The notes under the pieces were generated by a model that was not told the origin of the DNA, made no database searches, and saw only the letters and a list, made by a program, of their open reading frames with translations. From NCBI GenBank assembly GCA_026984795.1, contig JALSRK010000007.1, positions 1-64,000 of the forward strand: DNA of 64,000 nucleotides, in the 5' to 3' direction. Source of the DNA: Solibacteraceae bacterium (GTDB taxonomy: Bacteria > Acidobacteriota > Terriglobia > Bryobacterales > Bryobacteraceae). The translations under genes were made by a program, and so were the position numbers. Below are positions 5,291-64,000 of the stretch, piece after piece. Each line of letters begins with the position of its first letter. The first letter of the stretch is position 1.

Positions 5291-5935
5291 TCAGCGCTTG
5301 TTCCGGCCCGGGAGCAGCCGCTTGAGATCCGGCCAGAACTCTGTCAGGGCGTGCGACGCCGCCCGGCCGGCGAAGCCCCAACCGGTCCGGACCAGCGCCG
5401 GTCCCACCCCCTGCTCACTCGGCTCCCGCCAGGGCCACGTAAGGAAGTTGTTGCCCGCCGTCCCCACCCAGCGGGCATAGGCCGGCTTGACGGAGCCGTC
5501 CGGCCGGTAGGTGAAGAAGGTCATCTTCAGGACGTAGCGCACTCGCCCCCAGAACGGCAGCCCCTGGGAGCGGATGTAGCGCGGATCCTCGCCCCAGATC
5601 GCCCCCAGGCCCGCCTCGATGGCGTTGCCCGTCGCGACTCCGTAGAGCCGGATGGCGTAGCGCTTGCCGAAGCCCTCCGGCGTGCGCCCGTACTCGGGCG
5701 GCAGGTTCCAGAGGTTGCCCCAGGCGGCGCTCAGCGCTCCGGTGGCCAGGCTCCGCGGCCCGATCGAGGCCTCTGCGATCCAGTCGATCCGCTCCTCGCC
5801 AGTTACCGGCTCGTACGTTTGGCGGACCGCTGCCTGGGATGGGGGCCTGATCTGGCCCGGCTGCGGCCTGGCCTGTCCGGAGAGCAGACTGGCGCCCGCA
5901 ACGAGTGCGCACACGGCGATGGCGGCGGTTCGCAT
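5291..5935 (-). CDS. secreted protein of unknown function
   Basis: 214 residues starting with a Sec signal peptide (MRTAAIAVCALVAGASLLSG, cut likely after SGQA). The mature part has aromatic-rich segments (WGNLWNLPPEYGRTPEGFGK, FWGRVRYVLKMTFFTY) and ends basic. I do not recognise a family; the repeating glycine/aromatic pattern could fit a small outer-membrane or periplasmic protein. It begins 15 nt after the Gfo/Idh/MocA gene on the same strand, so the two are probably co-transcribed. No clear Shine-Dalgarno precedes it. Confidence 0.7.
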   Translation of the reverse strand: MRTAAIAVCALVAGASLLSGQARPQPGQIRPPSQAAVRQTYEPVTGEERIDWIAEASIGPRSLATGALSAAWGNLWNLPPEYGRTPEGFGKRYAIRLYGVATGNAIEAGLGAIWGEDPRYIRSQGLPFWGRVRYVLKMTFFTYRPDGSVKPAYARWVGTAGNNFLTWPWREPSEQGVGPALVRTGWGFAGRAASHALTEFWPDLKRLLPGRNKR

Positions 5936-5950
5936 GTCGCAGGGCGCGCC

Positions 5951-7168
5951 TCAGAGCGGCAGGATCACTTCGCGGATGGGATCGAACTCCAGCCGGCGCT
6001 TCTGTACATAGGCGATGTTGCCCAGATGCGACGCCTGGGCCGAACGGTGCCCGATGAGCACGTCGCCGTTGGGCCGCTGCCGGGTCTCCACGCATTGGAG
6101 GAAGTTGCGCACATGCTCGATGGTGAAGTCCTGGTCGTAGTGCGGCGTCACGACCACCGGCTCCGCCCCCTTTTCGGCCGCTTTGAAGACGTACTTGCTC
6201 CGGCTGATCCACAGGCTGCCCTTGGTGCCAACGAATTCGATCGCCGCCCCCTTCACCCCCGGCGCGAGCGTCGCCTCGAAGGTGGCCGTGAACTCGCTCG
6301 GGTATTCGAGCAGGACGTTGATCGTGTCCGGCGCCGTCCGGCCGTCCTTGAAGTGGTAGACGCCACCCGCCGCCGAGGCCGACTTCGGGATCTCGTCCTT
6401 CAGGAACATATGGACCACGTCGATCCAGTGGGTGAACAGGTCCGTCACCTGTCCGCCGCCGAAGTCCAGGTAGGCCCGCCAGTTCCAGTACTGCTGCGGA
6501 TCCCAGTCGCGCCACTTCAATGGTCCCAGGAACCGCGCCCAGTCGAGATTCGAGGGCTTCGTCTGCAGGAACTCCGGGGCCCGGCGGGTGTGATAGCTGT
6601 TGCCGTACCACCACGTCCTGGCCAACGTCACCTTGCCCAGCAGGCCCGTATCGACGAAGCGCCGTTTGGCCTCGATGTAGTGCGGTCCGGAGCGCTGCTG
6701 CATGCCTACCTGGCAGACCCGCCGGTTCACCCGCGCCGCCTTGACGATCTCCGGACCTTCTTCAATCTTCCGGGTCAGCGGCTTCTCAACGTAGACGTCC
6801 TTGCCGGCGTTGAGGGCGTCGATGGTCGTCGCCGCGTGCCAGTGGTCCGGCGTAGCGATGAGGACGATGTCCAGCTCTTTGTGTTCGAGCAGCTTCCGGT
6901 GGTCGCGGTACGTCTTGGCACCCGGCGCCAGCTCGAGCGCCTTGTCGAGCTGATAGGAATAGATGTCGCACAGCGCCGTCACCCGAACCCGGGAGTCCTG
7001 CTGAAACAGCGACATCACGTGCCGGCCCCGCACGCCCGGGCCGATCACCCCCAGCAGGATCGCGTCGTTGGCCCCCAGAACCCGCGAGTAGGAAGCTGCG
7101 GTCATCGCCGTTGCGCCTGTCGCTGCACCTTTCAGAAACTCGCGCCTGCCGATTCCCTTCGAATCCAT
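5951..7168 (-). CDS. Gfo/Idh/MocA family oxidoreductase, Tat-exported
   Basis: 405 residues. The N-terminus is a Tat signal (IGRREFLKGAATGA), then an NAD(P)-binding Rossmann domain (GVIGPGVRGRHVMSLFQ), the conserved VYVEKPLTR motif of the family (catalytic lysine), and the C-terminal alpha/beta domain with RTWWYGNSYHTR and DWDPQQYWNWR. Such proteins oxidise or reduce sugars or sugar derivatives; the Tat signal implies the cofactor is bound before export to the periplasm. Substrate unknown. The ATG has no Shine-Dalgarno but sits 6 nt after a TATAAT box, suggesting a leaderless mRNA. The secreted protein at 5291 follows it. Confidence 0.9.
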   Translation of the reverse strand: MDSKGIGRREFLKGAATGATAMTAASYSRVLGANDAILLGVIGPGVRGRHVMSLFQQDSRVRVTALCDIYSYQLDKALELAPGAKTYRDHRKLLEHKELDIVLIATPDHWHAATTIDALNAGKDVYVEKPLTRKIEEGPEIVKAARVNRRVCQVGMQQRSGPHYIEAKRRFVDTGLLGKVTLARTWWYGNSYHTRRAPEFLQTKPSNLDWARFLGPLKWRDWDPQQYWNWRAYLDFGGGQVTDLFTHWIDVVHMFLKDEIPKSASAAGGVYHFKDGRTAPDTINVLLEYPSEFTATFEATLAPGVKGAAIEFVGTKGSLWISRSKYVFKAAEKGAEPVVVTPHYDQDFTIEHVRNFLQCVETRQRPNGDVLIGHRSAQASHLGNIAYVQKRRLEFDPIREVILPL

Positions 7169-7174
7169 GTGCGA

Positions 7175-7180
7175 ATTATA
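7175..7180 (-). promoter_or_regulatory. -10 box for the Gfo/Idh/MocA gene
   Basis: A perfect TATAAT on the minus strand ends 6 nt before the ATG at 7168. No convincing -35 is found at 16-19 bp. Transcription would start at or next to the start codon (leaderless). A plus-strand TATTCT at 7198-7203 lies exactly 17 bp away and may serve the divergent BON gene. Confidence 0.5.
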
Positions 7181-7207
7181 GCGCCGCGCGCGGACCGTAT
7201 TCTTTGG

Positions 7208-7594
7208 ATGTCGGTGCTGCGTATCGTGGTTCTGGCTCTGGCCGCTCTCGCGTTGTGGGCCGAGGACGGCAAGGCGCCGGCGCCGGCTTCGCGGAGCGAG
7301 GAACCACGGTCCGATGCGCAACTGGAGGACGCCATCCGCGCCCGTTTCGCCCGCTCGAAGATCGCCGTCAACGGCTTCACGGTCCGCGTCCGCAGCGGCG
7401 TGGCGATCCTCGAGGGCAAGACCGATGTCGCCCAGCACAAGGGCGTCGCCACCCGGCTGGCCCGCCTGGCCGGGGCCCGCCGCGTGGAAAACCGCATCCA
7501 GGTCAGCGAGCGGGCCCGCGAGAAAGCCCGCCGCAGCCGCCGCCCGCCCCGGCGGGTCCACGTCCGCTGGGTCGAGCGCCACAAGCGCCGCTGA
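7208..7594 (+). CDS. BON-domain exported protein
   Basis: 128 residues. A Sec signal peptide ([20 protein letters not shown]) is followed by one BON domain (roughly residues 37-98): [47 protein letters not shown] domains bind phospholipid or peptidoglycan surfaces in OsmY-like periplasmic proteins. The last 30 residues are very basic ([13 protein letters not shown]), which might contact the membrane or another polyanion. The ATG lacks a Shine-Dalgarno and lies 4 nt after a TATTCT box. Divergent from the Gfo/Idh/MocA gene with only 39 nt between the two start codons. Confidence 0.8.
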
Positions 7595-7613
7595 GCCCGT
7601 CCGGGCCGTGTGC

Positions 7614-7619
7614 TATACT
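7614..7619 (+). promoter_or_regulatory. -10 box for rpmB-rpmG
   Basis: TATACT about 60 nt before the rpmB start. The matching -35 is weak by eye. It would give a leader of about 54 nt ending in GAGGAGCGAGTT ahead of the ATG, which contains a good Shine-Dalgarno. Confidence 0.4.
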
Positions 7620-7679
7620 AGCCGAAGGATATCCGATCCTGCTCCGAGACAACTCCGCGAGCATCCCGAGGAGCGAGTT

Positions 7680-7916
7680 ATGTCCCTTGTTTGCCAAGTC
7701 ACCGGAAAGCGGCCTGTGAGCGGCCACCGGATCTCGCACGCCAACAACAAGACCAAGCGCGTCTTCAAGCCGAACATCCAGACCAAGCGCTTCTGGCTGC
7801 CCAGCGAGAACCGGTGGATCAAGCTGCGCGTCAGCGCCAAGGGCATCAAGATCATCACCAAGCGCGGCATCGAGGCCGTCGTGAGGGATTTGAGAAAGAA
7901 GGGGGTCAAGGTCTGA
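7680..7916 (+). CDS. rpmB: 50S ribosomal protein L28
   Basis: 78 residues matching bacterial L28: the start [19 protein letters not shown], the central [17 protein letters not shown] and the end ISAK-type stretch [17 protein letters not shown]. The start is preceded by GGAGCGAG. Only one cysteine is present, so this is the zinc-free form. rpmG follows after one base, giving a ribosomal pair that ends at a strong terminator. Confidence 0.97.
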
Positions 7917-7917
7917 C

Positions 7918-8079
7918 ATGGCAGGCAACCGCATCAAGATCCGGCTCGTCTCCACCGCCAAGACGGGGCACTTCTACACCACCACCAAGAACCCCAAGAA
8001 GCGCCAGGAGAAGCTGGAGCTCAAGAAGTACGATCCGGTGATCCGCAAGCACGTCATCTATAAAGAAGCCAAGATCTAA
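7918..8079 (+). CDS. rpmG: 50S ribosomal protein L33
   Basis: 53 residues: [20 protein letters not shown], then [17 protein letters not shown] and the family end [10 protein letters not shown]. It lacks the CxxC pairs of zinc-binding L33, so it is the zinc-free paralogue. The ATG is one base after the rpmB stop, so translation is likely coupled. It is followed within 10 nt by an intrinsic terminator. Confidence 0.97.
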
Positions 8080-8087
8080 GGCTCGCT

Positions 8088-8113
8088 CCGGACGCCTCCT
8101 GCGCCGGTTTTTT
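8088..8113 (+). terminator. intrinsic terminator after rpmG
   Basis: Stem CCGG-A-CGC (8088-8095) pairs with GCG-CCGG (8101-8107) around loop CTCCT, with one bulged A, followed directly by six T residues. This is a textbook rho-independent terminator for rpmB-rpmG. Confidence 0.85.
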
Positions 8114-8114
8114 C

Positions 8115-8143
8115 AGGCGCCCGCCGCCAGCGGCTGGGCGCCT
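8115..8143. repeat. second hairpin in the rpmG/8171 gene gap
   Basis: AGGCGCCC (8115-8122) pairs perfectly with GGGCGCCT (8136-8143) around a 13-nt loop. On the plus strand it is followed by only TTT. It may back up the rpmG terminator or stop transcription arriving from the minus-strand gene that ends at 8171. Confidence 0.5.
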
Positions 8144-8170
8144 TTCGAGTCTCCGGGCGCTCGTTGGGGG

Positions 8171-10390
8171 CTATTCCGACCCCGCCCGGGCGCCGGCCGC
8201 CTTGTAAGGCCGCGTGTCCGGCTCCGGCTGAAATGCCTGCCACAGAGGCAGCGCCGCGGCATCGAACCAGGTCATCGGGTTCAGGCCCAGGATCAGCTCG
8301 ACGGTCCGCAGCACCGAGGCCGAGTTGTAGAAGGTACTGTCCACGAATCCCCGGCGGGCGTAGGGAGAGACGGCCAAGGCGACCGAGCGGCGGGGATCCA
8401 CGTGGTCCCGGCCGCCCGGGGCGCTCTCGACGACGAAGATCGCCATCTGCGGCCAGAAGCGGCTCCGCGTGCAGGCCTCGACGATCATCCCCAGGGCCCG
8501 GTCGTCGTCCGCCACCGCCTCCGGAGTGCGGGCGGCGTCCCGGGCCAGCCGCATCACCATCAGGCGCGGCATCTCGCCGGCCTGCTCCATGCGCTCCAGG
8601 TCGCGCAGGAAAGCCCGGGCCCGTTCGACGTCCGGGTAGCTGGGGTCGGGGCCGCGGAAGGCGCGGTCGGTGAAGCGTTTGATGCCCGGGTCCAACACGC
8701 GGCGCACCTGGGGGCCGCCCGGCGCCGCCGGCTCGGCGTTCTGCACGGCGAAGCCATAGTTGCGGACGCTCAGGCCGGCGAGCGCCGCCTGGGTCCAGAG
8801 GTACCCCGCCGGGGGCGCCGCGGCCAGCTCCGAGGGCCGGAAGATCTCCCGGCCCAGCCGCCCCGCCGCCACCGCCGGCCAGAGCCGCTCGACGAAGGCC
8901 GGCGCAATCGCCGCCGTCGCCCAGTAGAGGCCCGGGGCATCCCCGGCTCCGCAGGTGTAGAAATTGTCGAAGGTGACGAACTCCCGGGCCAGCTTGCGGT
9001 GGTTCGGGGCCGCTTCGGCGAACCGGACCAGCGCCCGGTCGCCGTTGCCCCGTCCTAGATCCCCGAGCACCTCGTCGAAGCTGAGGCGGCCCTTGACGAT
9101 GTAGAGCACATGCCGGATGGGTGACCGGTACTCTTCCGGCAACTCTGCCGCCGGCGGCACCGGACTTCCAAGCGGGATCTCCCGGAAGCCGATCATCCGC
9201 TCGTCGATGTATGGCGAGAGCCGCAGCACCTGCTTCGTGTAGTCGAACAGCGCCACCTCGTCCAGCGGCCCGATGACCGACGCCGTCCCCGAAGCCGTGC
9301 CCGAGCCCTTGGCGTTCAGCACCACGGCCCGGCCGCCGGGAAGCGCCGAGACGGCCGTCGGGTAAGCGCCCGCTGGGACGAATCCCAGCACCCGGGGCTC
9401 ACGCTTGGAGACGTCCACCACCGCCACCGTGTTGGCGCTCGAGCAGACGACGTACAGGCGCTTCTGGTCCGGCGCCAGCGCCAGCGCCGCCGGCGTCATG
9501 CCCGCCGGCTGCCGTGGCCACATCGCCATCCGTACTGGTTCGAGGCGCTCCAGCACGCCGCCCTCGCGGACTCCGATCACCTGCACCCGGTCCGCTCCGG
9601 CCACGGCCACGAAGATCCGCGCCTTCCACAGCGGCGGCTCTTCTTCCTCTTCGAGATCCGGCGGCCGGTCTTGCCAGACCATGTCCATCGGCTGCAGCCC
9701 CAGGCGTTCCAGATCCAGGTGGTGGCCCTCGTCGTCGAACTGGTGCACCGAGCCCTCCGCCCAGCTGGTGACGAAGTAGGAACCGCCGTCCGGATGCAGC
9801 AGCACCCGGTAAGGCCGCCGTGGGGCGGCGAACCGCTCGATCACCCAGCCGGACTGCGGATTGATCACTTGGACCTCGTTGCGGAACAGCGCTGTGATGT
9901 AGAGCAGCCGGCCGTCCGGCGTGACCTCGATGTCGCCGGCAAAGTCCTTGGGCGATTTCGGCTCGCCCCGCGGCACGGTGGAGAACGTCCTGCCTCTCTT
10001 CAGCTCGCCCTCGGCGGTCAGAGTGAACTCGTAGACCGCGGCTGCCGCGCCCCCGGTCACGTAGAGCGTCTTGCCCTCGGGGGTGAAGGCCAGGCCGTAA
10101 CCGGTGTCCGGCAGCTCCGCGCGGTCCGCTTCGCGGAAGTCCTGAGTCGAGAAGACCGCCACAGAAGGCTGCGCCCCGGCGTTCAAGACCGCCAACCAGC
10201 GGCCGTCCGGCGAGACCCGGCTCCTGACGGGAAACGAGCCCACGGGAACCTGCCGCCCGGCGGGCTGAATCCGCCAGCCGGTCACCAGGACGGTGGTTCC
10301 GTCGGGCGCGGGACCGGGGCGTTCCGGAAGCGGCGGCTGGGCCAGGCCGGCGGCGCACGCGGCGGCGAGCAAGACGGCGCGGCTCTTCAT
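8171..10390 (-). CDS. exported YncE-like beta-propeller / phosphoesterase-like fusion
   Basis: 739 residues. A signal peptide (ends near LAQ, residue 18) is followed by a seven-bladed propeller of the YncE/YVTN type (about 30-400; blades such as RVSPDGRWLAVLN, AFTPEGKTLYVTGG, LAPDQKRLYVVCSSAN) and a C-terminal alkaline-phosphatase/phospholipase-C-like domain (about 425-720). In known fusions the domain begins KENRT/SYDQ; here it reads VKGRLSFDEV, so the catalytic Asn/Thr positions are changed. The DGHNW-like motif is DAPGLYW, and the acidic pair before PDHVD is lost (VESAPGGRDHVD). The enzyme domain is therefore probably inactive. The ATG overlaps the nadE stop (ATGA). Confidence 0.8.
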   Translation of the reverse strand: MKSRAVLLAAACAAGLAQPPLPERPGPAPDGTTVLVTGWRIQPAGRQVPVGSFPVRSRVSPDGRWLAVLNAGAQPSVAVFSTQDFREADRAELPDTGYGLAFTPEGKTLYVTGGAAAAVYEFTLTAEGELKRGRTFSTVPRGEPKSPKDFAGDIEVTPDGRLLYITALFRNEVQVINPQSGWVIERFAAPRRPYRVLLHPDGGSYFVTSWAEGSVHQFDDEGHHLDLERLGLQPMDMVWQDRPPDLEEEEEPPLWKARIFVAVAGADRVQVIGVREGGVLERLEPVRMAMWPRQPAGMTPAALALAPDQKRLYVVCSSANTVAVVDVSKREPRVLGFVPAGAYPTAVSALPGGRAVVLNAKGSGTASGTASVIGPLDEVALFDYTKQVLRLSPYIDERMIGFREIPLGSPVPPAAELPEEYRSPIRHVLYIVKGRLSFDEVLGDLGRGNGDRALVRFAEAAPNHRKLAREFVTFDNFYTCGAGDAPGLYWATAAIAPAFVERLWPAVAAGRLGREIFRPSELAAAPPAGYLWTQAALAGLSVRNYGFAVQNAEPAAPGGPQVRRVLDPGIKRFTDRAFRGPDPSYPDVERARAFLRDLERMEQAGEMPRLMVMRLARDAARTPEAVADDDRALGMIVEACTRSRFWPQMAIFVVESAPGGRDHVDPRRSVALAVSPYARRGFVDSTFYNSASVLRTVELILGLNPMTWFDAAALPLWQAFQPEPDTRPYKAAGARAGSE

Positions 10391-12036
10391 GGGGTGAACC
10401 TTTGGGCGATGGGGAAGCGCCGGCCGATGCCGAACGCTTTCGAGGTCACCTTCAGGCCCGGCGGCGCCTGCTGCCGTTTGTACTCGTTGCGGTCCACCAT
10501 CCGGATCACCTCCTGGATCACGGCGAGGCCGAAGCCGGTCTCGGCGGCGATCTCCTCGGGCGCCTTGTACTCCTCGATGTAGCGGTGGAGGATCGCGTCC
10601 AGCATCTCGTAGGCCGGCAGCGAGTCGGTGTCCTTCTGATCCGGCCGCAGCTCTGCCGAAGGCGGTTTGACGAAGACCCGCTCCGGGATCACGCCGCCGT
10701 GGCGCCGGTTCGCCACTCGGCCCAACTCGTAGACCATGGTCTTCGGCACGTCGCTGATCACCGCCAGCCCGCCGGCCATGTCGCCGTACAGGGTGCAGTA
10801 GCCCACGGCCAGCTCGCTCTTGTTGCCCGTGGTCAGCACCATCGCCCCCCACTTGTTCGATAGCGCCATCAGCACCAGCCCCCGGAGCCGAGCCTGGATG
10901 TTCTCCTCGGTGACGTCCGGCGGCCGGTCGCCGAAGAGCGGCTGCAGCGCCTCCAGGCAAGCCTGATACGGACCGTTGATCGAGGCCACTTCGAACCGGA
11001 TACCGAGGTTCCGCGCCAGCGTCCGGGCGTCCTCGAGGCTGGCTTCCGAGGAAAACGGGCCGGGCATGGCGACGCCCGTGACATTCTCCCGGCCCACGGC
11101 GTCGGCGGCGAGGACGGCGGTCACTGAAGAATCGATCCCGCCGCTCAGCCCCAGCAGCACCTCCTGGAAACCGCACTTGCGGATGTAGTCCCGGGCGCCC
11201 AGCACCAGGGCCTCGTAGACGGCTTCGATCTCCTCGGGCAGGTTCTCGCGACGGTCGCCCTGGCCGGTTTCCAGATCGGCGAAGATCAGGTCCTCCTCGA
11301 AAGAGGCCGCCGCCGCGGTCACCCGGCCCTCGGGATCCATTACGAAGCTGCTGCCGTCGAAGATGAGCTGATCGTTGCCGCCCACCTGGTTCACGTAGAT
11401 CACCGGCATGCGGTACTTGCGGGCGGTGGTGGCGAAAATCTCCCGCCGCAGCTCGCGCTTGCCCATATGAAACGGCGAGGCGTTGATGCTGATGAGCGCC
11501 TCGGCCCCCTGCCGGGCGAGCTCCTCGACCGGGTCGCGGTCATAGCGCCGCCGCCGCCAGAACTGCTTGTCGTTCCAGGCGTCCTCGCAGACCGTCAGAG
11601 CGAACTTCACCCCCTCGGATTCCCAGACCCGCTGCGAGGCCGCCGGCAGGAAATACCGCGCCTCGTCGAAGACGTCGTAGGTGGGCAGCAGCATCTTGGT
11701 CTGGCGGAAGAGCTCCCGGCCGCGCTCGATGACCACCGCCTGGTTGTAGGCCGGCTTGCCGGCCTCGGAGTTCGTCGGGGCCACCGTGCCGTAGACGATC
11801 TTCAGATCCAGCTCCGCCGTCTCCTCGGCCAGCCGCGCCTCGGCCTCCTTGGTCCGCCGGTAGAAGCTGGGCTTCTCGAGCAGGTCCCGCGGCGGGTAGC
11901 CCGGCACGGCCAGCTCCTGGAAGACGGCCATCCGGGCGCCTGCCTCGGCTGCCCGGCGCGCCATGGCGGCGATGCGGTCGATATTGCCCGGAAAGTCCCC
12001 CACGGTGGTGTTGATCTGCGCCAGGGCGACCTTCAT
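10387..12036 (-). CDS. nadE: glutamine-dependent NAD+ synthetase
   Basis: 549 residues, two domains. The N-terminal nitrilase-fold glutaminase (1-260) has the Glu of FQELAVPGYPP, the Lys of KMLLPTYDVFDEARYF and the Cys of LTVCEDAWN. The C-terminal ATP-pyrophosphatase (280-549) has LLGLSGGIDSSVTAVLA and NKSELAVGYCTLYGDMAGG. It amidates nicotinate adenine dinucleotide to NAD+ using ammonia channelled from glutamine. A longer frame upstream exists, but this ATG begins the conserved fold (MKVALAQIN). A -10-like TAGAAT lies at 12053-12048. The propeller/phosphoesterase-like gene follows with ATGA overlap. Confidence 0.95.
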   Translation of the reverse strand: MKVALAQINTTVGDFPGNIDRIAAMARRAAEAGARMAVFQELAVPGYPPRDLLEKPSFYRRTKEAEARLAEETAELDLKIVYGTVAPTNSEAGKPAYNQAVVIERGRELFRQTKMLLPTYDVFDEARYFLPAASQRVWESEGVKFALTVCEDAWNDKQFWRRRRYDRDPVEELARQGAEALISINASPFHMGKRELRREIFATTARKYRMPVIYVNQVGGNDQLIFDGSSFVMDPEGRVTAAAASFEEDLIFADLETGQGDRRENLPEEIEAVYEALVLGARDYIRKCGFQEVLLGLSGGIDSSVTAVLAADAVGRENVTGVAMPGPFSSEASLEDARTLARNLGIRFEVASINGPYQACLEALQPLFGDRPPDVTEENIQARLRGLVLMALSNKWGAMVLTTGNKSELAVGYCTLYGDMAGGLAVISDVPKTMVYELGRVANRRHGGVIPERVFVKPPSAELRPDQKDTDSLPAYEMLDAILHRYIEEYKAPEEIAAETGFGLAVIQEVIRMVDRNEYKRQQAPPGLKVTSKAFGIGRRFPIAQRFTP

Positions 12037-12093
12037 CGCGAACTTCCATTCTACTGCCCGGGGCGCTCGCAACCCGGAAGGCGCGAAAAACTC

Positions 12094-12122
12094 TTGCGCC
12101 GGCGGCCCGCCTCGCATAGAAT
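12094..12122 (+). promoter_or_regulatory. promoter of the bicupin gene (leaderless layout)
   Basis: -35 TTGCGC (12094-12099), a 17-bp spacer and -10 TAGAAT (12117-12122). The GTG start at 12130 is 7 nt beyond the -10, so transcription would start at the start codon itself. No Shine-Dalgarno is present. Confidence 0.65.
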
Positions 12123-12129
12123 CCGAGGC

Positions 12130-13005
12130 GTGCGGGCATCCAGGCTTCTAGTTCTCCTGGTCGGCATGGCCTTGCTCGGTCCGCTACCATCGCTGCGGCC
12201 AGTGGAACGGACCGTCGCTCCAACGTTCCTCTACCGGCACCTCCCCAGTCTTCCGGAACGCCCTTCCGACATCACGACCCCATCGTGCCGCTACAAGCCG
12301 ATCTTCGGCGCCGGCGACTCGGAGACCCGCATCGTCAAGAGCGTCGCCCGGTTCGGCGAGGCCATCATCGAGCCCGGCGGCCGCTGCGCCATCGTGAACT
12401 ACCCGCGCGAAGAACAGGTCTACGTCGTGCTCGAAGGCTCGCCCGTGCTCCACTACGGCGGCGAGCGGCGTCCCCTGCGCCGCTACGACTACATGTACCT
12501 GCCGCCGGCCGTCTCGCACGGGCTCTCGAATCCCGGCTCCCAGCCCGCCAGAGTGCTCGTAATGGGTTGGAGGATTCCCCAGGGTCTGGCGCTCGAGATC
12601 CCCGATTCGCTTCAGCTCGCCAACATCGACGACGTGCCGCTCCAGGTGGTGGGCGGGCACCCGCCAAGCACCAAGTACCGCCTGCTGATGGGCACGACGG
12701 AAAGCAAGCGCGACCGCATCGCCGCTTCCCACGTGCTCACCAGCCTTTTCATGATGGAGTTCGAGCCGGGGGGCACGAACTTCCCACACCATCATCCGAG
12801 GGAAGAGGAGTTCTACCTGCTGCTGAGCGGCGAAGGGGAGATGGTAGCCGGCGGCGGCATGGACGGCATCGAGGGCCGCCATCCGGCCAAGGCCGGCGAC
12901 GCTTACTTCTTCCGCCTGAACTGCACCGTCGGGTTCTACGCGACCAAGGATCCCCGCGCCCCGAAAGCCCGCATCCTGGCCGCCCGCAGCCTTTACCCGC
13001 GCTGA
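12130..13005 (+). CDS. exported bicupin protein
   Basis: 291 residues from a GTG start that gives a good signal peptide (MRASRLLVLLVGMALLGPLP). Two cupin domains are visible: the first around residues 95-155 (EQVYVVLEGSPVLHYGG, PPAVSHGLSNPG), the second around 205-275 with the metal-binding motif FPHHHPREEEFYLLLSGEGE. Only the second has a full H-x-H-x-E set, so it probably carries the catalytic or structural metal. The layout recalls (S)-ureidoglycine aminohydrolase-like or oxalate-decarboxylase-like bicupins, but the substrate is not clear. It is followed 33 nt later by the enolase-superfamily gene, likely one operon. Confidence 0.75.
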   Translation: MRASRLLVLLVGMALLGPLPSLRPVERTVAPTFLYRHLPSLPERPSDITTPSCRYKPIFGAGDSETRIVKSVARFGEAIIEPGGRCAIVNYPREEQVYVVLEGSPVLHYGGERRPLRRYDYMYLPPAVSHGLSNPGSQPARVLVMGWRIPQGLALEIPDSLQLANIDDVPLQVVGGHPPSTKYRLLMGTTESKRDRIAASHVLTSLFMMEFEPGGTNFPHHHPREEEFYLLLSGEGEMVAGGGMDGIEGRHPAKAGDAYFFRLNCTVGFYATKDPRAPKARILAARSLYPR

Positions 13006-25575: not shown

Positions 25576-27213
25576 TCAGTGCCACTCCCAGTCGATGAAG
25601 CCGGGCTTGACGTCCTCCATGGCGTTGACGATCAGCTCGACGAGGCCGCCGTAGCCGATGCGGTACTTCTCCCAGAGGCCGTAGTAGGCGATGATGTCGC
25701 GGAACTGGCCCTTGCAGTTCGAGCACGGGGCGCAGACGTACTTGTTTACGTTGGGATCGTCCACGCAATCCGAGAAGGCGTTCAGGATCTGCTCGAGCTT
25801 CTTGCGGCCGGAGACGTGGAAGCGCCAGTCCTCGAAGTTGTTGCCGCTCATGATGGCGAAGCCCGAGCCGCCGCCGCAGCAGTAATTGTCCACCCCGTGG
25901 GGGTGCATTTCGCGGAACTGCGGGCAGATCTTGTGCAGGATCTCCCGCTGGGGGTTGACCACGCCCATCAGCCGCACCAGATTGCACGGGTCGTGGAGGG
26001 TGACCGGGAAGTCGTTGCGCGAGGGGTCGAGCTTCAGCTTGCCGCTCATGACGATCTCATGAAGCAGCGTCATGGCGCTCTCGCGGGGGATGTTGTCTTC
26101 GCCCAGCAGTATCCGGTCCGCAATCACCGAGAGCGCTTTGTGGGCGTGGCCACACTCTCCCAGCACGATGCGCTTTACCTTGAGCTTGCGGGCGGCCTCG
26201 GCGTGCTTGAGGGCCACGCGGGCGAACTGGGCGTCGTCGTACCAGAGACCGTAGTTGACCGAATCGTAGCCGGCGAGCTCTGAGGACATCGTCCAACTGA
26301 TGCCCGCCTGCTGGAGGATCAAGGCGAAGGCGCCTGGGTTCTCCGGCCAGGCCAGGATCTCCCCGGCGTTGTGGATCAGGAGCACGTCGGCTCCCTGGAC
26401 GTCCCAGGGCGTGTGGACCTCGATGCCGGTCTTCTCGCTGATCTCCTCGTCGATGAACTCGATGTTGTCCTTCACCACCTCGGCGTTCATGCCGGTCGAG
26501 GAGCCGACCTTGAGCTGGAGCATCGAGCCGTTGTCGTGGATCTCCTTGGCGGCGATGCCCATCTCCTGGCTGAAGAGCTTGCGCAGCTCGTGGGCGATCA
26601 GTCCGTTGTCCACGCCGATGGGGCAGGTCTGGGCGCACCGGCGGCAGAGGTTGCACCGGTACGAAAGCTCGATCAGGCGCGCCACCAGCGCCCAGTTGAG
26701 CTTGATGTCGCCGTGCTCGAAGGCGGCCAGGAAGCCGCCGTGCTTGACGTACTTGAAGTAGAGCCGGCGCATGATCTCGGAGCGGTAGGTGGGCCGGTAG
26801 AGCTCGCTGTAGCCGCTGGCCTCATAGATGTGGCAGGCCTCCGAGCAGGTCTGGCACTTCACGCAATACTCCATGGAAAGGACCAGCGGCTGGAGGAACG
26901 TCCAGTTGTCTTCCTTGAGAAACAGCTTGTCCAGGCCGGCGAGGAACTTCTTGACCAGCTCGCGCTCCTCTTCTTTCGTCTTCGGCTTGGGGACGTTGAC
27001 GGCGACGGTATCGTCGAGGATGCACTCGTACTTCTCGCGGGCCGAGTCGGGGATGGGGCGCCAGGGGCGGTCCTTCGCTGGGTCGTCCAAGGGGGGCGGC
27101 AGCCGCATCAGATCCTCGTTCTCCAGATGGAGCAGCGGCTGCCCGTCCTCCCGCGCCATGTCGGAGAGCTTCACGAAGTTCTTCTTCTGCCGTTTCGTCT
27201 TCTCGTCGCTCAT
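25576..27213 (-). CDS. DsrK/TmcB-like iron-sulfur protein with CCG domains
   Basis: 545 residues, cytoplasmic. Two [4Fe-4S] ferredoxin motifs, C117-x2-C-x2-C-x3-C127 and C187-x2-C-x2-C-x3-C197 (CNLCRRCAQTCPIGVD), precede the heterodisulfide-reductase-type CCG region: LGECGHAHK (C354), HDPCNLVR (C410), NYCCGGGSGF (C445/446) and CAPCSNC (C494, C497, C500). In HdrB/D and DsrK this region holds a noncubane cluster that reduces disulfides. It is encoded with a NarI/DsrM-like heme-b subunit whose stop overlaps its ATG (ATGA). The pair probably moves electrons between the quinone pool and a cytoplasmic thiol/disulfide carrier; no DsrAB, DsrC or TmcA is visible here. Confidence 0.88.
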   Translation of the reverse strand: MSDEKTKRQKKNFVKLSDMAREDGQPLLHLENEDLMRLPPPLDDPAKDRPWRPIPDSAREKYECILDDTVAVNVPKPKTKEEERELVKKFLAGLDKLFLKEDNWTFLQPLVLSMEYCVKCQTCSEACHIYEASGYSELYRPTYRSEIMRRLYFKYVKHGGFLAAFEHGDIKLNWALVARLIELSYRCNLCRRCAQTCPIGVDNGLIAHELRKLFSQEMGIAAKEIHDNGSMLQLKVGSSTGMNAEVVKDNIEFIDEEISEKTGIEVHTPWDVQGADVLLIHNAGEILAWPENPGAFALILQQAGISWTMSSELAGYDSVNYGLWYDDAQFARVALKHAEAARKLKVKRIVLGECGHAHKALSVIADRILLGEDNIPRESAMTLLHEIVMSGKLKLDPSRNDFPVTLHDPCNLVRLMGVVNPQREILHKICPQFREMHPHGVDNYCCGGGSGFAIMSGNNFEDWRFHVSGRKKLEQILNAFSDCVDDPNVNKYVCAPCSNCKGQFRDIIAYYGLWEKYRIGYGGLVELIVNAMEDVKPGFIDWEWH

Positions 27214-28148
27214 TTCGACTGCCCCCCTGCATGCGGATTGGTGGTGGCGATCTCGGCCCAGGTCTTCTGGCCGTCGGCCCGGATGTGCGGGGCGGACCAG
27301 TGGGGCCTGTAAGCAAGGTACTGAGCGATCTTTTGCTGGATCTCGTTCGCCTCGTTCGCCGGCAAGTCGTCCCAGCGGATCGAGTGGTAAGTGAAGTACT
27401 TGCCGACGTAGTGGGCCATGTGCGTGAGCGGGATGTAGGTGATCAACAGCGACATCAGGATCAGGCCGGCAGCCAACAGGATGGGGATCCGGACGCTGGT
27501 GTCGAAGGTGAACAGCGCCACCGCCATCGCTACGGTGCCGGGGTAGTCCGGGCCGCGCAGCAGGTAGCCGGCCGCCAGCACGCCGAAAGCCGCCAGGAAG
27601 AAGAGAAGGTTGAAGATATCGCCCGGGGCGGTGTAGTTCTTCAGGTCCGGATCGCGCAGCCGCTTCAGCAGCAGGGCGAAGGCCCCGATCATCGCCAGGA
27701 AGGCCCCGAGGGCGCCGCAGACGGCCACCAGAGCGCCGAGGACCGCGCCGAAGGCCCCGGCCATCGCCGCCGGCCAGAAGATGGCGAGCAGGGCGCTCAG
27801 GATCAGCAGCTTCACCGAGGCGATCAGCAGGTAGAGGCCTGCGTGGAAGGGAAAGGAGCGGAACCAGAGCCCGCGGTTGAACTCCCAGAGCGCCTTCAGG
27901 AAGAGCATCTCCGAGAGCATGAACTTGAGCTCCGTCAGCCGGTTCACCGTCCGCGGCTTCTCCCACCACTTCGATTCTTCGAAGTAGGAGCCGCCGTGGG
28001 CGACGCGCTCAGACGGCTCGTGCGGCACGGGGTAGAGCTCCCAGCGCAGGTGCAACGGCTGGCGGGCGTACATCACCGCCCGGACCAGGGAGGCGACAAG
28101 GAAGCTCACCAGACCGACATAGACGATCAAGAAGACGAATGTTGTCAT
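27210..28148 (-). CDS. NarI/DsrM-like b-type cytochrome membrane subunit
   Basis: 312 residues. One N-terminal helix is followed by a ~60-residue cytoplasmic loop and about five further helices. Likely heme-b histidines are in SFPFHAGLYLL and in the last helix YIPLTHMAHYVGKYFTYH, as in the nitrate reductase gamma / DsrM / TmcC family. It would exchange electrons with quinone and pass them to the Fe-S partner encoded downstream. It is first gene of a two-gene operon with a recognisable promoter about 50 nt upstream. Confidence 0.85.
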   Translation of the reverse strand: MTTFVFLIVYVGLVSFLVASLVRAVMYARQPLHLRWELYPVPHEPSERVAHGGSYFEESKWWEKPRTVNRLTELKFMLSEMLFLKALWEFNRGLWFRSFPFHAGLYLLIASVKLLILSALLAIFWPAAMAGAFGAVLGALVAVCGALGAFLAMIGAFALLLKRLRDPDLKNYTAPGDIFNLLFFLAAFGVLAAGYLLRGPDYPGTVAMAVALFTFDTSVRIPILLAAGLILMSLLITYIPLTHMAHYVGKYFTYHSIRWDDLPANEANEIQQKIAQYLAYRPHWSAPHIRADGQKTWAEIATTNPHAGGQSK

Positions 28149-61004: not shown

Positions 61005-62495
61005 TCAGCTTTCGGGCCCCCGGCGACCCGCACCCGTAGCTCGTCCAGAAACCGGCAGGCGGACGGTGAATATCGAGCCGCGGCCGGGGGTGGAATCCAC
61101 GGTGATCGAGCCGCCGTGCTCAGAAGCGACCTTGTGGGAGACCAGGAGGCCCAGGCCCGTACCCTCGGAGCCTTTGGTGGAGAAAAACATCGTGAACAGC
61201 TTCGCCCTGGTCTCCTCGTCCATGCCGATGCCGTTGTCCTCGACCTCGATGACGACGTCTTCTCCGTCGCGGCGGGCCCGGACCCAGACCCGGTAGTCCT
61301 TCCCCTCGTCGGTGTCGGCGGCGCAGGCGTCGATGGCGTTGGTCACCAGATTGGCCAGCAGGGCGTGGATGTCTTTCGGCTCGCCGTAGAGGGTTTCGGC
61401 GCCGGGCTCGATCCTGACCTCGAGCCGGACCCCGGCGTCCCGGGCGCGGCGCTCGAACAGATCGGCGACCTCCCGGGCGAGGCGGTCCAAGCGCACCTCG
61501 ACCCGGCGCGGTTCGCGGTCCCGGGCGCAGTAGAGCATGTCCATGATCATCGCCGAGAGGCGGTCCACGTTCCGCTGGACCATCTCCCAGCCGGTGCGGA
61601 TCGTCCGCTGGTCGTTGTCGCGCAGGCCGGCGTTGACGACGTAGACGCCGCCGCGAAGGCCCTCGAGGACGTTCTTGATGGAGTGGGCGGTGCCGGCGAC
61701 GAGCTGGCCGATGAAAGCGAGCTTGCTCTGCAGCTCCTTGACTTCGGTGATGTCGGTGGAAACCTCCATGACGGACGTGATCCGGCCGGTACGGTCGCGC
61801 ACGGCGGCGGTATGGGTGAGCACATGGAGCTGGTGGCCGTGCCGGTCGAAGACGACCTCTTCGGAGTGGTGGACGCGACCGTCCTCGAAGGTCCGGGCCA
61901 CCGGGCACTCGGAACAGGGCTCAGCGCGCCGCTTGTAGACCTCGTAACAGCGGCGGCCGAGGCGTTCGCCGAAGGCCTCCTTGAAGCGGCGGTTGGCTTC
62001 GACGATGGTGAGTTCCCGGTCCTGGACGGAGATGAAGCAGGGGACGGTGTCGAAGAGATTGTGGAACCGGGCGAGGGAGTCGTGGAGGCGATGCTCGAGC
62101 TCCTTCTGGACGGTGATGTCGGTGAAGAGCTCCATCACGGCGACGATCCGGCCGCCGTCGCGGCGCCGGAGCGGCTTGGTGTTGACGATGACGTTGTGGG
62201 GCAGGCCGCGGGCGTCGAAGATCACTTCCTCGGAAGTGTGCTCTTCGCCGTCCTCGAAGGTCCGGGCCACGGGACACTCGGGACAGCGTTCAGCGCGGCC
62301 CTTGTAAACCTGCCAGCAATAGCGGCCGAGGGGGGAGCCAAAGTCCTCGATGAGCTTGCGGTTGGCTTCCAGGACGCGGTAGTCGGGCCCCTGGATGGAG
62401 ATGTAGCAGGGAACCTCGTCGAAGAGCCGGCCGCAGGAGAGCTCGCGGATGTCGAGTTTCGGCGCTGAGCGCGCCGTCGAGGAGCTGTCCGCCAT
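61005..62495 (-). CDS. sensor histidine kinase with two Cys-motif PAS domains
   Basis: 496 residues, no membrane segment, so cytoplasmic. PAS1 (about 20-135) and PAS2 (about 145-258) are clear duplicates; each carries C-x10-C-x2-C (C60/C71/C74 and C183/C194/C197, sequences RCPECPVARTFEDG and PCSECPVARTFEDG). Then a phospho-acceptor helix with H271 (AGTAHSIKNVLEG) and a HATPase domain with LVTNAIDAC (N386), EDNGIGMDEE and STKGSEGTGLGL. The cysteines may bind a metal, Fe-S cluster or heme, or act as a thiol switch. It begins 57 nt after the Fe-S/receiver fusion gene, its likely partner. AAGGAGG lies before the ATG. Confidence 0.9.
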   Translation of the reverse strand: MADSSSTARSAPKLDIRELSCGRLFDEVPCYISIQGPDYRVLEANRKLIEDFGSPLGRYCWQVYKGRAERCPECPVARTFEDGEEHTSEEVIFDARGLPHNVIVNTKPLRRRDGGRIVAVMELFTDITVQKELEHRLHDSLARFHNLFDTVPCFISVQDRELTIVEANRRFKEAFGERLGRRCYEVYKRRAEPCSECPVARTFEDGRVHHSEEVVFDRHGHQLHVLTHTAAVRDRTGRITSVMEVSTDITEVKELQSKLAFIGQLVAGTAHSIKNVLEGLRGGVYVVNAGLRDNDQRTIRTGWEMVQRNVDRLSAMIMDMLYCARDREPRRVEVRLDRLAREVADLFERRARDAGVRLEVRIEPGAETLYGEPKDIHALLANLVTNAIDACAADTDEGKDYRVWVRARRDGEDVVIEVEDNGIGMDEETRAKLFTMFFSTKGSEGTGLGLLVSHKVASEHGGSITVDSTPGRGSIFTVRLPVSGRATGAGRRGPES

Positions 62496-62551: not shown

Positions 62552-64000
62552 CTATTGAATCTGGTCGCTCGGAATCCGCGTCCCGAGCACCTGGATGGCT
62601 GTTTCGATCACCTTGTCCGGGTCGATGGGCTTTTCGAGAAACGCGTTCGGCTCCGGGATGCCCTTTTCGGCGATGAACTCGTGGAACCGGACGGTGGGCT
62701 TGTCGGTCTTGCCGTAGCCGGTGATGATGACGATGGGCAAATTCTTGTACTTCTCGTCCTTGCGGAGCTCCCAGTAGAGCTTCTCGCCGGTCTTGTGGGG
62801 CATCACGAGGTCCAGGGTGACGAGGTCGGGCTTCTGATCGCGGATCTGCCGCCAGCCCTGGTTGGCGTCGGGCGCTTCGAGCACTTCCGCGCCCTTGTCT
62901 TTGAAGATCACCCGGAGATAGGTGCGCACGTCGGGTTCGTCGTCGATGACGAGCACCTTGTAGCCGGCCAGCGCCTTGGCCGGGATCTCGCCCGGGGCGA
63001 CGGCCACCGGAACCTCGACCTTGGGCGCCGGCTTGGGCACGACGAGGGCATTGTAAACCATGTCGACGAGCTGCTTGACCTCCATGTCGAGCTGGTAGTG
63101 CTTGATGAGGTCGGTAAGCCCGTCCACGCAGTTGTGGCAAGAGGTGATGACGATCTTGGCCCCGGTGGCCCGGAGCTGCTCGGCCTTGATCTTGGCCGAT
63201 TTCAAGCGGCGCGGAGCATACTCGGCCATCGACATGGCGCCGCCGCCGCCGGTGCAGCAGAAGTTCTGCTGGCGGTTGGGATACATCTCGCGGAAGTCGG
63301 AGCAGACCAGCCGGAGCAGTTCGCGGGGCTCCTCGGTCATGCCGCAGGAGCGGGCCATGTTGCAGGAGTCGTGGTAGGTGACCGGGATGGAGTTCTTGGA
63401 CTTGTCTACCTGGATGCGACCTTCCTTGATGTAGCGGAGCATGGTGATGATGGAGCTTTCCATCTCGATGTCCGGCAGGTCGGTCTTGCTCCAATTAGGT
63501 CCCTCGCAGCGGGTGGAGCGGTAGCCGTGGCCGCACTCGCTGATGACGATGCGTTTGGCTCCGATGGTGCGGGCGGCGTCGTAGACCCGGCGGGCGCAAG
63601 CGCCGCCGAGCTCGTCGTCGCCGTTGAAGAGGCCGAAGTTGGTCATGTCCCAGCCTTCGCTCACCATGGTCCAGTTCTCGCCGGCGAAGTGGAAGATGGC
63701 GGCGGCTTCGGCGATGGTCCGGGGATCGTATTTGGCCTCGCGGGGATTGATGGTGTAGACGAGCTCGGCGCCCTTCTTGTCGATGGGGATCTTGATGTTG
63801 GGATCGTCGAATTCGTCCTGGAGCTCCTCCTCCATCCACTCGACCGTTTCCAGGTAGTCCTCCTTGAGGACGCCCATCTGATTGCCGATCTCCCACTGGT
63901 CCTTGGCGACGGTGGCCACGCCCTCGGGCATGATGCCGACGTGGACGAGCAGGCCCCGGGCGAGGCGGTTGAAGGTGGCCATATCGACACCCATCGGGCA
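62552..64000 (-). CDS. CCG-domain Fe-S protein fused to a response-regulator receiver (5' end missing)
   Basis: 482 codons are visible; the frame stays open to the window edge and begins CPMGVD, the end of a [4Fe-4S] motif (compare CPIGVD in the DsrK-like protein at 25576), so the N-terminal ferredoxin part lies outside. The rest, numbered from the Met at 63994, has HdrD/DsrK-type CCG motifs: SECGHGY (C154), HDSCNMARSCG (C211, C217), NFCCTGGGG (C246/247), SCHNC (C286, C289). A proline-rich linker leads to a complete receiver domain (346-472): DD351/352, phospho-Asp D395, T425, K455. No DNA-binding output domain. The adjacent PAS kinase is the probable phosphodonor. Confidence 0.88.
   Translation of the reverse strand, partial: CPMGVDMATFNRLARGLLVHVGIMPEGVATVAKDQWEIGNQMGVLKEDYLETVEWMEEELQDEFDDPNIKIPIDKKGAELVYTINPREAKYDPRTIAEAAAIFHFAGENWTMVSEGWDMTNFGLFNGDDELGGACARRVYDAARTIGAKRIVISECGHGYRSTRCEGPNWSKTDLPDIEMESSIITMLRYIKEGRIQVDKSKNSIPVTYHDSCNMARSCGMTEEPRELLRLVCSDFREMYPNRQQNFCCTGGGGAMSMAEYAPRRLKSAKIKAEQLRATGAKIVITSCHNCVDGLTDLIKHYQLDMEVKQLVDMVYNALVVPKPAPKVEVPVAVAPGEIPAKALAGYKVLVIDDEPDVRTYLRVIFKDKGAEVLEAPDANQGWRQIRDQKPDLVTLDLVMPHKTGEKLYWELRKDEKYKNLPIVIITGYGKTDKPTVRFHEFIAEKGIPEPNAFLEKPIDPDKVIETAIQVLGTRIPSDQIQ

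Follow-up and report, generated by a model that had tools for sequence, protein, structure and literature searches.

A gene at the right edge of the DNA analyzed here raises the question of whether a respiratory iron-sulfur (Fe-S) enzyme can be switched by a phospho-receiver domain built into its own chain. This DNA, called the window below, comprises bases 1-64000 (64,000 nucleotides) of the 90475-base contig JALSRK010000007.1 of a Solibacteraceae bacterium (Acidobacteriota; assembly GCA_026984795.1), an uncultured bacterium with sulfate-reduction genes whose genome of 5.23 Mb lies on 77 contigs and is rated 96.8% complete. The gene fuses a CCG Fe-S protein to a receiver. This fusion recurs in distant bacteria with the same membrane partner and in most cases an adjoining kinase, which suggests that the respiratory enzyme may be under direct control of a signal.

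The fused gene

A single frame without a stop codon joins the two parts on the minus strand and is open at the right edge of the window. The following features were identified:

62552-64000, minus strand: in-window part of the fused gene (residues 113-594), a single open frame; the gene extends to contig position 64336
63986-64000, minus strand: last residues of the two-cluster 4Fe-4S domain (Fer4_8, residues 28-117; Pfam PF13183, 41.0 bits, gathering score 27)
63128-63382, minus strand: CCG domain, residues 319-403, with C325, C360, C361, C400 and C403 (Pfam PF02754)
62603-62956, minus strand: receiver domain, residues 461-578 (Pfam PF00072, 66.7 bits, gathering score 30.2)
62810-62812, minus strand: codon of the phospho-acceptor D509, which is D in 86 of 86 fusions

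A preliminary description of the window had placed the gene at 62552-64000, which is right within the window, but the 5' end lies outside it. Following the contig past this end added 336 bases and 112 residues and gave a complete open reading frame (ORF) of 594 codons (contig 62552-64336). Since the first 112 residues lie outside the window, most of that domain does so too. In the 594-residue protein Fer4_8, CCG and Response_reg all score above their Pfam gathering scores, and the CCG motif reads C325-x34-C360C361-x38-C400xxC403. The receiver satisfies the PF00072 profile and has the acid pair, phospho-Asp, Thr/Ser and Lys (D465, D466, D509, T539, K569). The Pfam matches thus bear out the earlier claims of a CCG protein and an intact receiver in one frame, and no DNA-binding domain was found among them, again as described. 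The phospho-acceptor had been called D395, which is the right residue in a 480-residue frame and corresponds to D509 of the full protein. A simple hydropathy count showed no membrane segment in the fusion.

Distribution and conservation of the fusion

No close match to the fusion was found in the 20 nearest genomes, nor in either of the two same-family genomes within a draw of 396 genomes from the phylum. Across that draw, 12 genomes, the source genome included, match over both parts, which rules out a lone oddity of this genome; the 11 others are 52-67% identical to the source fusion, that of G156 being truncated where its contig ends. Species genomes were scanned as well and gave 228 relatives, of which the best 80, ranked by likeness to the source fusion, were taken. 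All 80 span both parts (in L125 the match stops at residue 550, where the contig ends), and as only the best 80 of 228 were used, the breadth reported here is a lower bound. Removal of six duplicates left 86 distinct loci. The joint lies within one ORF at 80 of the 80 named loci (at L081 another ORF encodes the N-terminal part), so that the fusion is genuine and the artefact or frameshift considered in the preliminary description is ruled out. Going by record titles and NCBI labels only, at least 14 phylum-level names occur among the fused loci: Acidobacteriota, Zixiibacteriota, Calditrichota, Planctomycetota, Gemmatimonadota, Myxococcota, Thermodesulfobacteriota, Elusimicrobiota, Ignavibacteriota, Poribacteria, Hydrogenedentota, Electryoneota, LCP-89 and Riflebacteria. 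In a second phylum, that of L138, 10 of 297 genomes carry the fusion in one frame and 27 others have unfused matches at E <= 1e-100, so the fusion is the minority form there.

The phosphorylation residues are kept across the 86 fusions. D509 is invariant, D465 and D466 are present in 85 (L141 lacks that stretch), K569 is present in 85 with one contig end, and position 539 is T in 71 and S in 15. The five CCG cysteines, as well as C268 and H270, occur in all 86 fusions and the eight 4Fe-4S cysteines in 85. Mean column conservation is 0.84 in the CCG part, 0.71 in the receiver and 0.50 in the linker between them, which varies from 5 to 54 residues.

The operon and its kinase

The fused gene lies in an operon with the order Rrf2, Rrf2, macro, cytochrome b, fusion, kinase, all on the same strand. 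Two of its members are located as follows:

61005-62495, minus strand: PAS-PAS histidine kinase of 496 residues with two C-x10-C-x2-C triads (Pfam HATPase_c and PAS)
L023:5080-5640 (contig 65079-65639): macro-domain gene, upstream of the cytochrome b gene

The PAS histidine kinase, which had been noticed earlier, begins 56 bases after the fusion gene, has no membrane segment by the same simple count, and is the probable partner of the fused receiver. Neighbours were counted by distance on the same strand at the 86 loci. A NarI-like cytochrome b lies upstream at all 86, a macro domain upstream at 83 (two contig ends, one absent), a kinase downstream at 80 (four contig ends, two absent), a further receiver downstream at 62 (11 contig ends, 13 absent, the source locus among them) and Rrf2 upstream at 23, the source locus included (nine contig ends, 54 absent). 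The receiver count admits any same-strand receiver within about 5 kb, and counts at fixed positions (cytochrome b 81, macro 76, kinase 79 and receiver 57 of 86) are depressed by wrong-frame ORFs, as at L067. Among 79 aligned kinases the C-x10-C-x2-C triad is kept in both PAS domains (77 with two gaps in one, 79 in the other) and the acceptor His (H271) in 76, with three gaps. Two histidines of the cytochrome b are kept in 80 and 81 of 81 aligned sequences, and all 57 aligned stand-alone receivers keep the DD pair, the phospho-Asp and the Lys.

Pairwise distances were correlated over the 50 loci having all parts, using 500 permutations. The CCG part follows the cytochrome b with r 0.73. The fused receiver tracks the catalytic part of the kinase with r 0.59; when CCG and cytochrome b are controlled for, the partial r is 0.55, a value reached in 3 of 500 permutations. 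With the CCG part to which it is joined its correlation is weaker (r 0.37; partial 0.33, 2 of 500). The macro protein tracks the cytochrome b (partial 0.28, 0 of 500) and not the CCG part (0.02, 226 of 500).

Origin of the fusion

A quick tree of 119 CCG parts was calculated, with support from the Shimodaira-Hasegawa-like approximate likelihood ratio test (SH-aLRT) only; its outgroup does not fall on one side of a branch. One of the 86 fusions was dropped for length, 14 of 38 neighbour-derived rows (labelled K) were drawn randomly, and two paralogues from the source genome were included; two of the K rows duplicate rows of fusions (L125, L132). Of the 85 fusions, 84 form one clade (SH-aLRT 99), and eight unfused rows, 57-61% identical to the source protein, are its sister (93). 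The divergent fusion L067, a long row, falls just outside both, with ten unfused rows further out. This placement may reflect loss of the fusion in the sister group or misplacement of the row.

Seven further unfused loci (L175-L181) were chosen from the second-phylum search for read-through matches or a high score. At four of them a separate receiver directly follows the CCG gene: L175 and L178 have the order cytochrome b, CCG, receiver, kinase, receiver, with CCG-receiver gaps of 69 and 52 bases, and L176, which carries the fusion too, and L177 have CCG, receiver, kinase with gaps of 72 and 48 bases. Two genes separate the CCG gene from the receiver at L180 and L181, and no receiver was found at the CCG locus of L179. 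A receiver invariably beside the CCG gene in unfused relatives is ruled out by L179-L181 and the eight closest unfused loci. Because some unfused relatives share the order cytochrome b, CCG, receiver, kinase, neighbouring genes probably merged, and an origin of the fusion by such a merger is well supported; separation or loss elsewhere would complete the simplest account. At four of the chosen unfused loci a tetratricopeptide repeat (TPR) protein takes the place of the macro gene:

L175:8795-9361: TPR-repeat gene in place of the macro gene
L178:4695-5282: TPR-repeat gene in place of the macro gene
L179:7665-8279: TPR-repeat gene in place of the macro gene
L180:4630-5202: TPR-repeat gene in place of the macro gene

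The source genome also holds a paralogous unfused cluster on its contig C57 (L024, approximately 5766-12994, minus strand). It encodes a DsrK/HmcF-like CCG protein, an HmcE-like cytochrome, a 4Fe-4S protein (HmcB by eye), an HmcC-like protein with haem motifs, a PAS kinase with the same cysteine triads and a separate receiver.

Association with dissimilatory sulfite reduction

The fusion tracks the genes of dissimilatory sulfite reduction. The source genome encodes DsrA (605.2 bits) with a DsrB-like gene adjoining, two DsrC-family proteins and AprA (914.8 bits), as well as separate DsrK (736.7 bits), DsrM, DsrO and DsrP above their cut-offs on the contig of one DsrC gene. Every one of the 12 fused genomes in the phylum draw matches DsrA with 383 bits or more, ten of them above the cut-off of 392.85 and the matches in G156 and G265 being fragments, compared with 19 of the 384 other genomes above this threshold (Fisher p 5e-15, without correction for shared ancestry). 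A DsrA match was obtained in only one of the eight closest unfused genomes (E 6.8e-4) and in none of the ten next unfused genomes in the tree. Outside the phylum draw, 50 of the fused genomes behind 74 distinct named loci were searched, and DsrA was found in 44 of them (43 above the cut-off). A strict tie of the fusion to DsrA is ruled out by the remaining six.

At several loci the association is physical. In L106 one strand carries dsrA, dsrB, genes for a CobB-type and an NAD(P)-binding protein (NAD(P), nicotinamide adenine dinucleotide (phosphate)), and dsrC, followed by macro, cytochrome b, fusion and kinase, and then by a gene for a 179-residue protein, dsrM, dsrK, dsrO and dsrP; NCBIfam confirms dsrA, dsrB, the CobB-type protein, dsrC, DsrM, DsrK, DsrO and DsrP. 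L138, L142, L144 and L147 have dsrB to dsrC-like genes before the module and dsrM/dsrK-like genes after it. The Dsr names of these neighbour families (DsrM, DsrK, DsrN, DsrC etc.) are a reading from similarity.

Within the window, a second DsrK-like CCG protein (332.3 bits, cut-off 400) is encoded at 25618-26979 (minus strand), and upstream of it, at 27210-28148 (minus strand), a 312-residue DsrM-like membrane protein without an NCBIfam match. Pairs related to this one (25618-28148) occur near the fusion at about 20 of the 86 loci. A protein of 168-179 residues precedes dsrM in both dsr clusters (L026:11614-12120 and L106:12627-13166); the L026 copy has no NCBIfam match and its kinship with the L106 copy was read by eye.

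Family assignment and known systems

The preliminary identification as a CCG Fe-S protein of the HdrD/DsrK kind is upheld by the CCG domain and by the nearest NCBIfam models of the Fe-S part, which are HmcF (338.8 bits), TmcB (330.4) and DsrK (259.1). All three scores are below the curated cut-offs for identity (NF045711, 750; NF045724, 735; NF045796, 400), and the L106 fusion scores 333.9 as HmcF and 255.2 as DsrK. Likewise, DVU0259 (NF045717), the best specific model of the fused receiver, gave 85.9 against a cut-off of 160. Membership in an Hmc complex, with HmcA-HmcD alongside HmcE and HmcF, is not indicated, as none of these was identified in the operon; HmcD, a small peptide, could slip past the ORF list used. 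The broader traits of the HmcF/TmcB/DsrK type are present: a two-cluster 4Fe-4S domain, then CCG, with a NarI-like cytochrome b gene adjoining. This upstream partner is a 233-residue membrane protein that scores best with HmcE (60.4, cut-off 275) and TmcC (45.9, cut-off 240) and falls below the Pfam cut-off as NarI-like cytochrome b as well (20.2 vs 22.9). The macro protein matches PF01661 (89.7 bits, cut-off 22), with adenosine diphosphate (ADP)-ribose as a putative ligand. By its predicted domains the module is built like HmcE-HmcF, TmcC-TmcB and DsrM-DsrK, yet it is none of them by curated score.

Rrf1 of the hmc locus is a receiver. According to PMC10924467, the Desulfovibrio vulgaris hmc locus comprises HmcE, a NarI-related cytochrome b, HmcF, a cytoplasmic Fe-S protein, and the regulators rrf1 and rrf2. 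HmcF is at the same time the best model of the fusion's Fe-S part, but here the receiver lies in the enzyme chain, and the operon has a macro and a kinase gene and no identified HmcA-D. The Tmc system offers the second-best model, TmcB, and the best receiver model, DVU0259, which lies near the tmc genes; both score below cut-off, and unlike in Tmc no CxxCH haem motif was present among the ORFs picked around the operon. DsrM-DsrK shares the design of cytochrome b and CCG protein, and dsr neighbours occur in several fused loci, but the low DsrK score and the separate DsrK, DsrM, DsrO and DsrP of the source genome set the fusion apart. CheB, RssB and PleD each combine an effector with a receiver that governs it when phosphorylated; the fusion has such a receiver in cis, with a respiratory Fe-S subunit as the effector. 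EtfD (ETF:menaquinone oxidoreductase, ETF standing for electron transfer flavoprotein; PDB 9ojn) is the best solved match over the Fe-S part, and its sequence alignment covers profile positions 97-439, with no receiver aligned.

The legend to the hdr loci in PMC2702500 lists separate response regulator, histidine kinase and CheY-like neighbour genes, a hint that the same association had been glimpsed before. The terms 'response regulator' and 'histidine kinase' are absent from the main text of PMC10591310, PMC10504309, PMC10564751 and PMC8528874, and one passage of PMC3333781 names neither hmc, tmc, rrf1, DVU0258 nor DVU0259. No such fusion is described in the literature searched, which consisted mostly of titles and the beginnings of abstracts, with subscription journals largely outside its coverage. 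The earlier statement that no system of this kind had been described needs narrowing, as a separate receiver gene near HmcF is known from the hmc locus (PMC10924467). It stands, as far as these sources go, for the covalent fusion and the macro-cytochrome b-fusion-kinase operon, including how widely the operon occurs and its link with dsr genes.

Candidate mechanism and alternatives

We give about an even chance to the module being a membrane electron-transfer unit, working between menaquinone and thiol/disulfide carriers, that is switched in cis by its kinase. The NarI-like cytochrome b would exchange electrons with menaquinone, and the two [4Fe-4S] clusters of the cytoplasmic Fe-S protein would pass them to a noncubane cluster at the CCG domain, an assignment made from the CCG motif and general knowledge of the CCG family. 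This cluster would make or break a disulfide or trisulfide, most likely that of DsrC in dsr-bearing hosts. The cysteine triads in the PAS domains of the kinase probably read redox or thiol state, as a redox or metal-thiol sensor, and the adjacent kinase would phosphorylate D509, causing a shape change that alters the activity or partner binding of the Fe-S subunit. The sequences themselves show the domains, the kept residues and neighbours and the association with dsr genes, whereas the cluster types, the redox partners, the direction of electron flow, the phosphotransfer and the gating are inferred. The phospho-gating proposed in the preliminary description has indirect support in the residues kept across 86 loci, the kinase at 80 of them and the partial correlation between receiver and kinase; the effect of phosphorylation itself is a supposition.

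A structural model of the L078 homologue, predicted from 40 rows, had a mean predicted local distance difference test score (pLDDT) of 83.0 and a predicted template modelling score (pTM) of 0.68, with receiver blocks mostly at 88-95 and linker residues 436-438 below 50. In a structural search with this model the best solved match, and the closest fold of full length, was EtfD (9ojn; template modelling score 0.55 on the query, 20% identity). A LutA-LutB model came next, then many receivers, with an Hdr chain in place 49. When solved sequences were searched with a profile, most matches were receivers, plus EtfD.

Several observations weigh against switching in cis by the kinase. The position of the receiver relative to the Fe-S part is not settled by the predicted model. 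At none of the eight closest unfused loci does a related receiver adjoin the CCG gene directly, so the module does not need one to work. The operon in the source genome has no second receiver, and where a second receiver is found, it too tracks the kinase (partial 0.42, 4 of 500 permutations) and tracks the CCG part as closely as the fused one does (partial 0.33, 0 of 500), which means that the pairing of receiver and kinase is not exclusive. The proposed mechanism does not account for the macro protein. Finally, no DsrA was found in the genomes of L084, L085, L087, L105, L114 and L140 (6 of 50 fused), and hence DsrC cannot be the partner everywhere. Gaps in metagenome-assembled genomes (MAGs) may lie behind some of these absences. 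L084, L085 and L087, labelled Planctomycetota, Hydrogenedentota and Poribacteria, form one clade, all without a DsrA match, and there the module may serve another carrier.

The signal could also run in the reverse direction, the alternative raised in the preliminary description, but we consider this unlikely. The Fe-S complex would then sense redox state and alter uptake or loss of phosphate by the receiver, the fusion acting as a reporter or phosphate sink, and the stand-alone receiver or regulators like Rrf2 would provide the output. The downstream receiver at 62 of the 86 loci, the intact residues of all 57 aligned copies and the upstream Rrf2 at 23 loci would fit such an output, but the second receiver is absent in 13 loci and Rrf2 in 54, and the kinase has cysteine triads of its own, so that it has no need of the enzyme as a sensor.

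Equally improbable in our estimate is a receiver that serves as a phosphorylation-dependent docking or dimerisation module and determines assembly, attachment to the membrane or the choice of partner, leaving turnover unaffected. A linker that varies from 5 to 54 residues and is modelled with low confidence is what a tethered docking domain would have, but a membrane segment was not seen in the fusion by simple hydropathy count. Control of synthesis alone, as reported for rrf1/rrf2 and hmc expression, with the fusion merely keeping enzyme and regulator at equal dose, appears very unlikely: Rrf2-family genes lie upstream in the source locus and 22 others, but most fusions have none nearby, the fusion lacks a DNA-binding domain, and its receiver is tied to the Fe-S enzyme. 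An assembly error, frameshift or neutral read-through can be dismissed as highly improbable since, even though all 80 named loci are MAGs by title, every one carries the joint in one ORF, 84 of 85 fusions form one clade and the phosphorylation residues are kept.

Returning to switching in cis by the kinase, a wider reading is plausible, if short of probable. The fusion would represent a class of respiratory complex switched directly by two-component phosphorylation, in which a soluble redox-sensing kinase acts on a receiver in the Fe-S subunit connecting the menaquinone pool with the cytoplasmic thiol/disulfide carriers of sulfite reduction, the macro protein perhaps adding an NAD or ADP-ribose signal; by extension, separate receivers encoded next to HmcF-type proteins, among them Rrf1, would target the complex itself and not genes alone. 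If this is true, a signalling kinase can switch electron flow into dissimilatory sulfur metabolism at the enzyme and not only at the gene level. Since the gene set accompanies dsr genes and is found under 14 or more phylum-level names, the sulfur cycle would have a general control point here. For receivers that lack a DNA-binding domain, of which Rrf1 next to HmcF is an example, action on the complex versus expression becomes directly testable. The macro-domain partner at 83 of the 86 loci is a second lead.

Other genes near the fusion

Two further families were noticed around the fusion. One, of about 266 residues and by eye a MerR-like helix-turn-helix protein with a cysteine-rich middle, is encoded third upstream of the fusion at 17 loci (for example L092:6863-7630 and L059:5401-6225). 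The other, of about 580 residues, lies near the fusion at 12 loci (for example L060:11396-13192 and L089:5558-7288) and by eye combines a low-molecular-weight-phosphatase-like part, PAS and a sigma54 activator.
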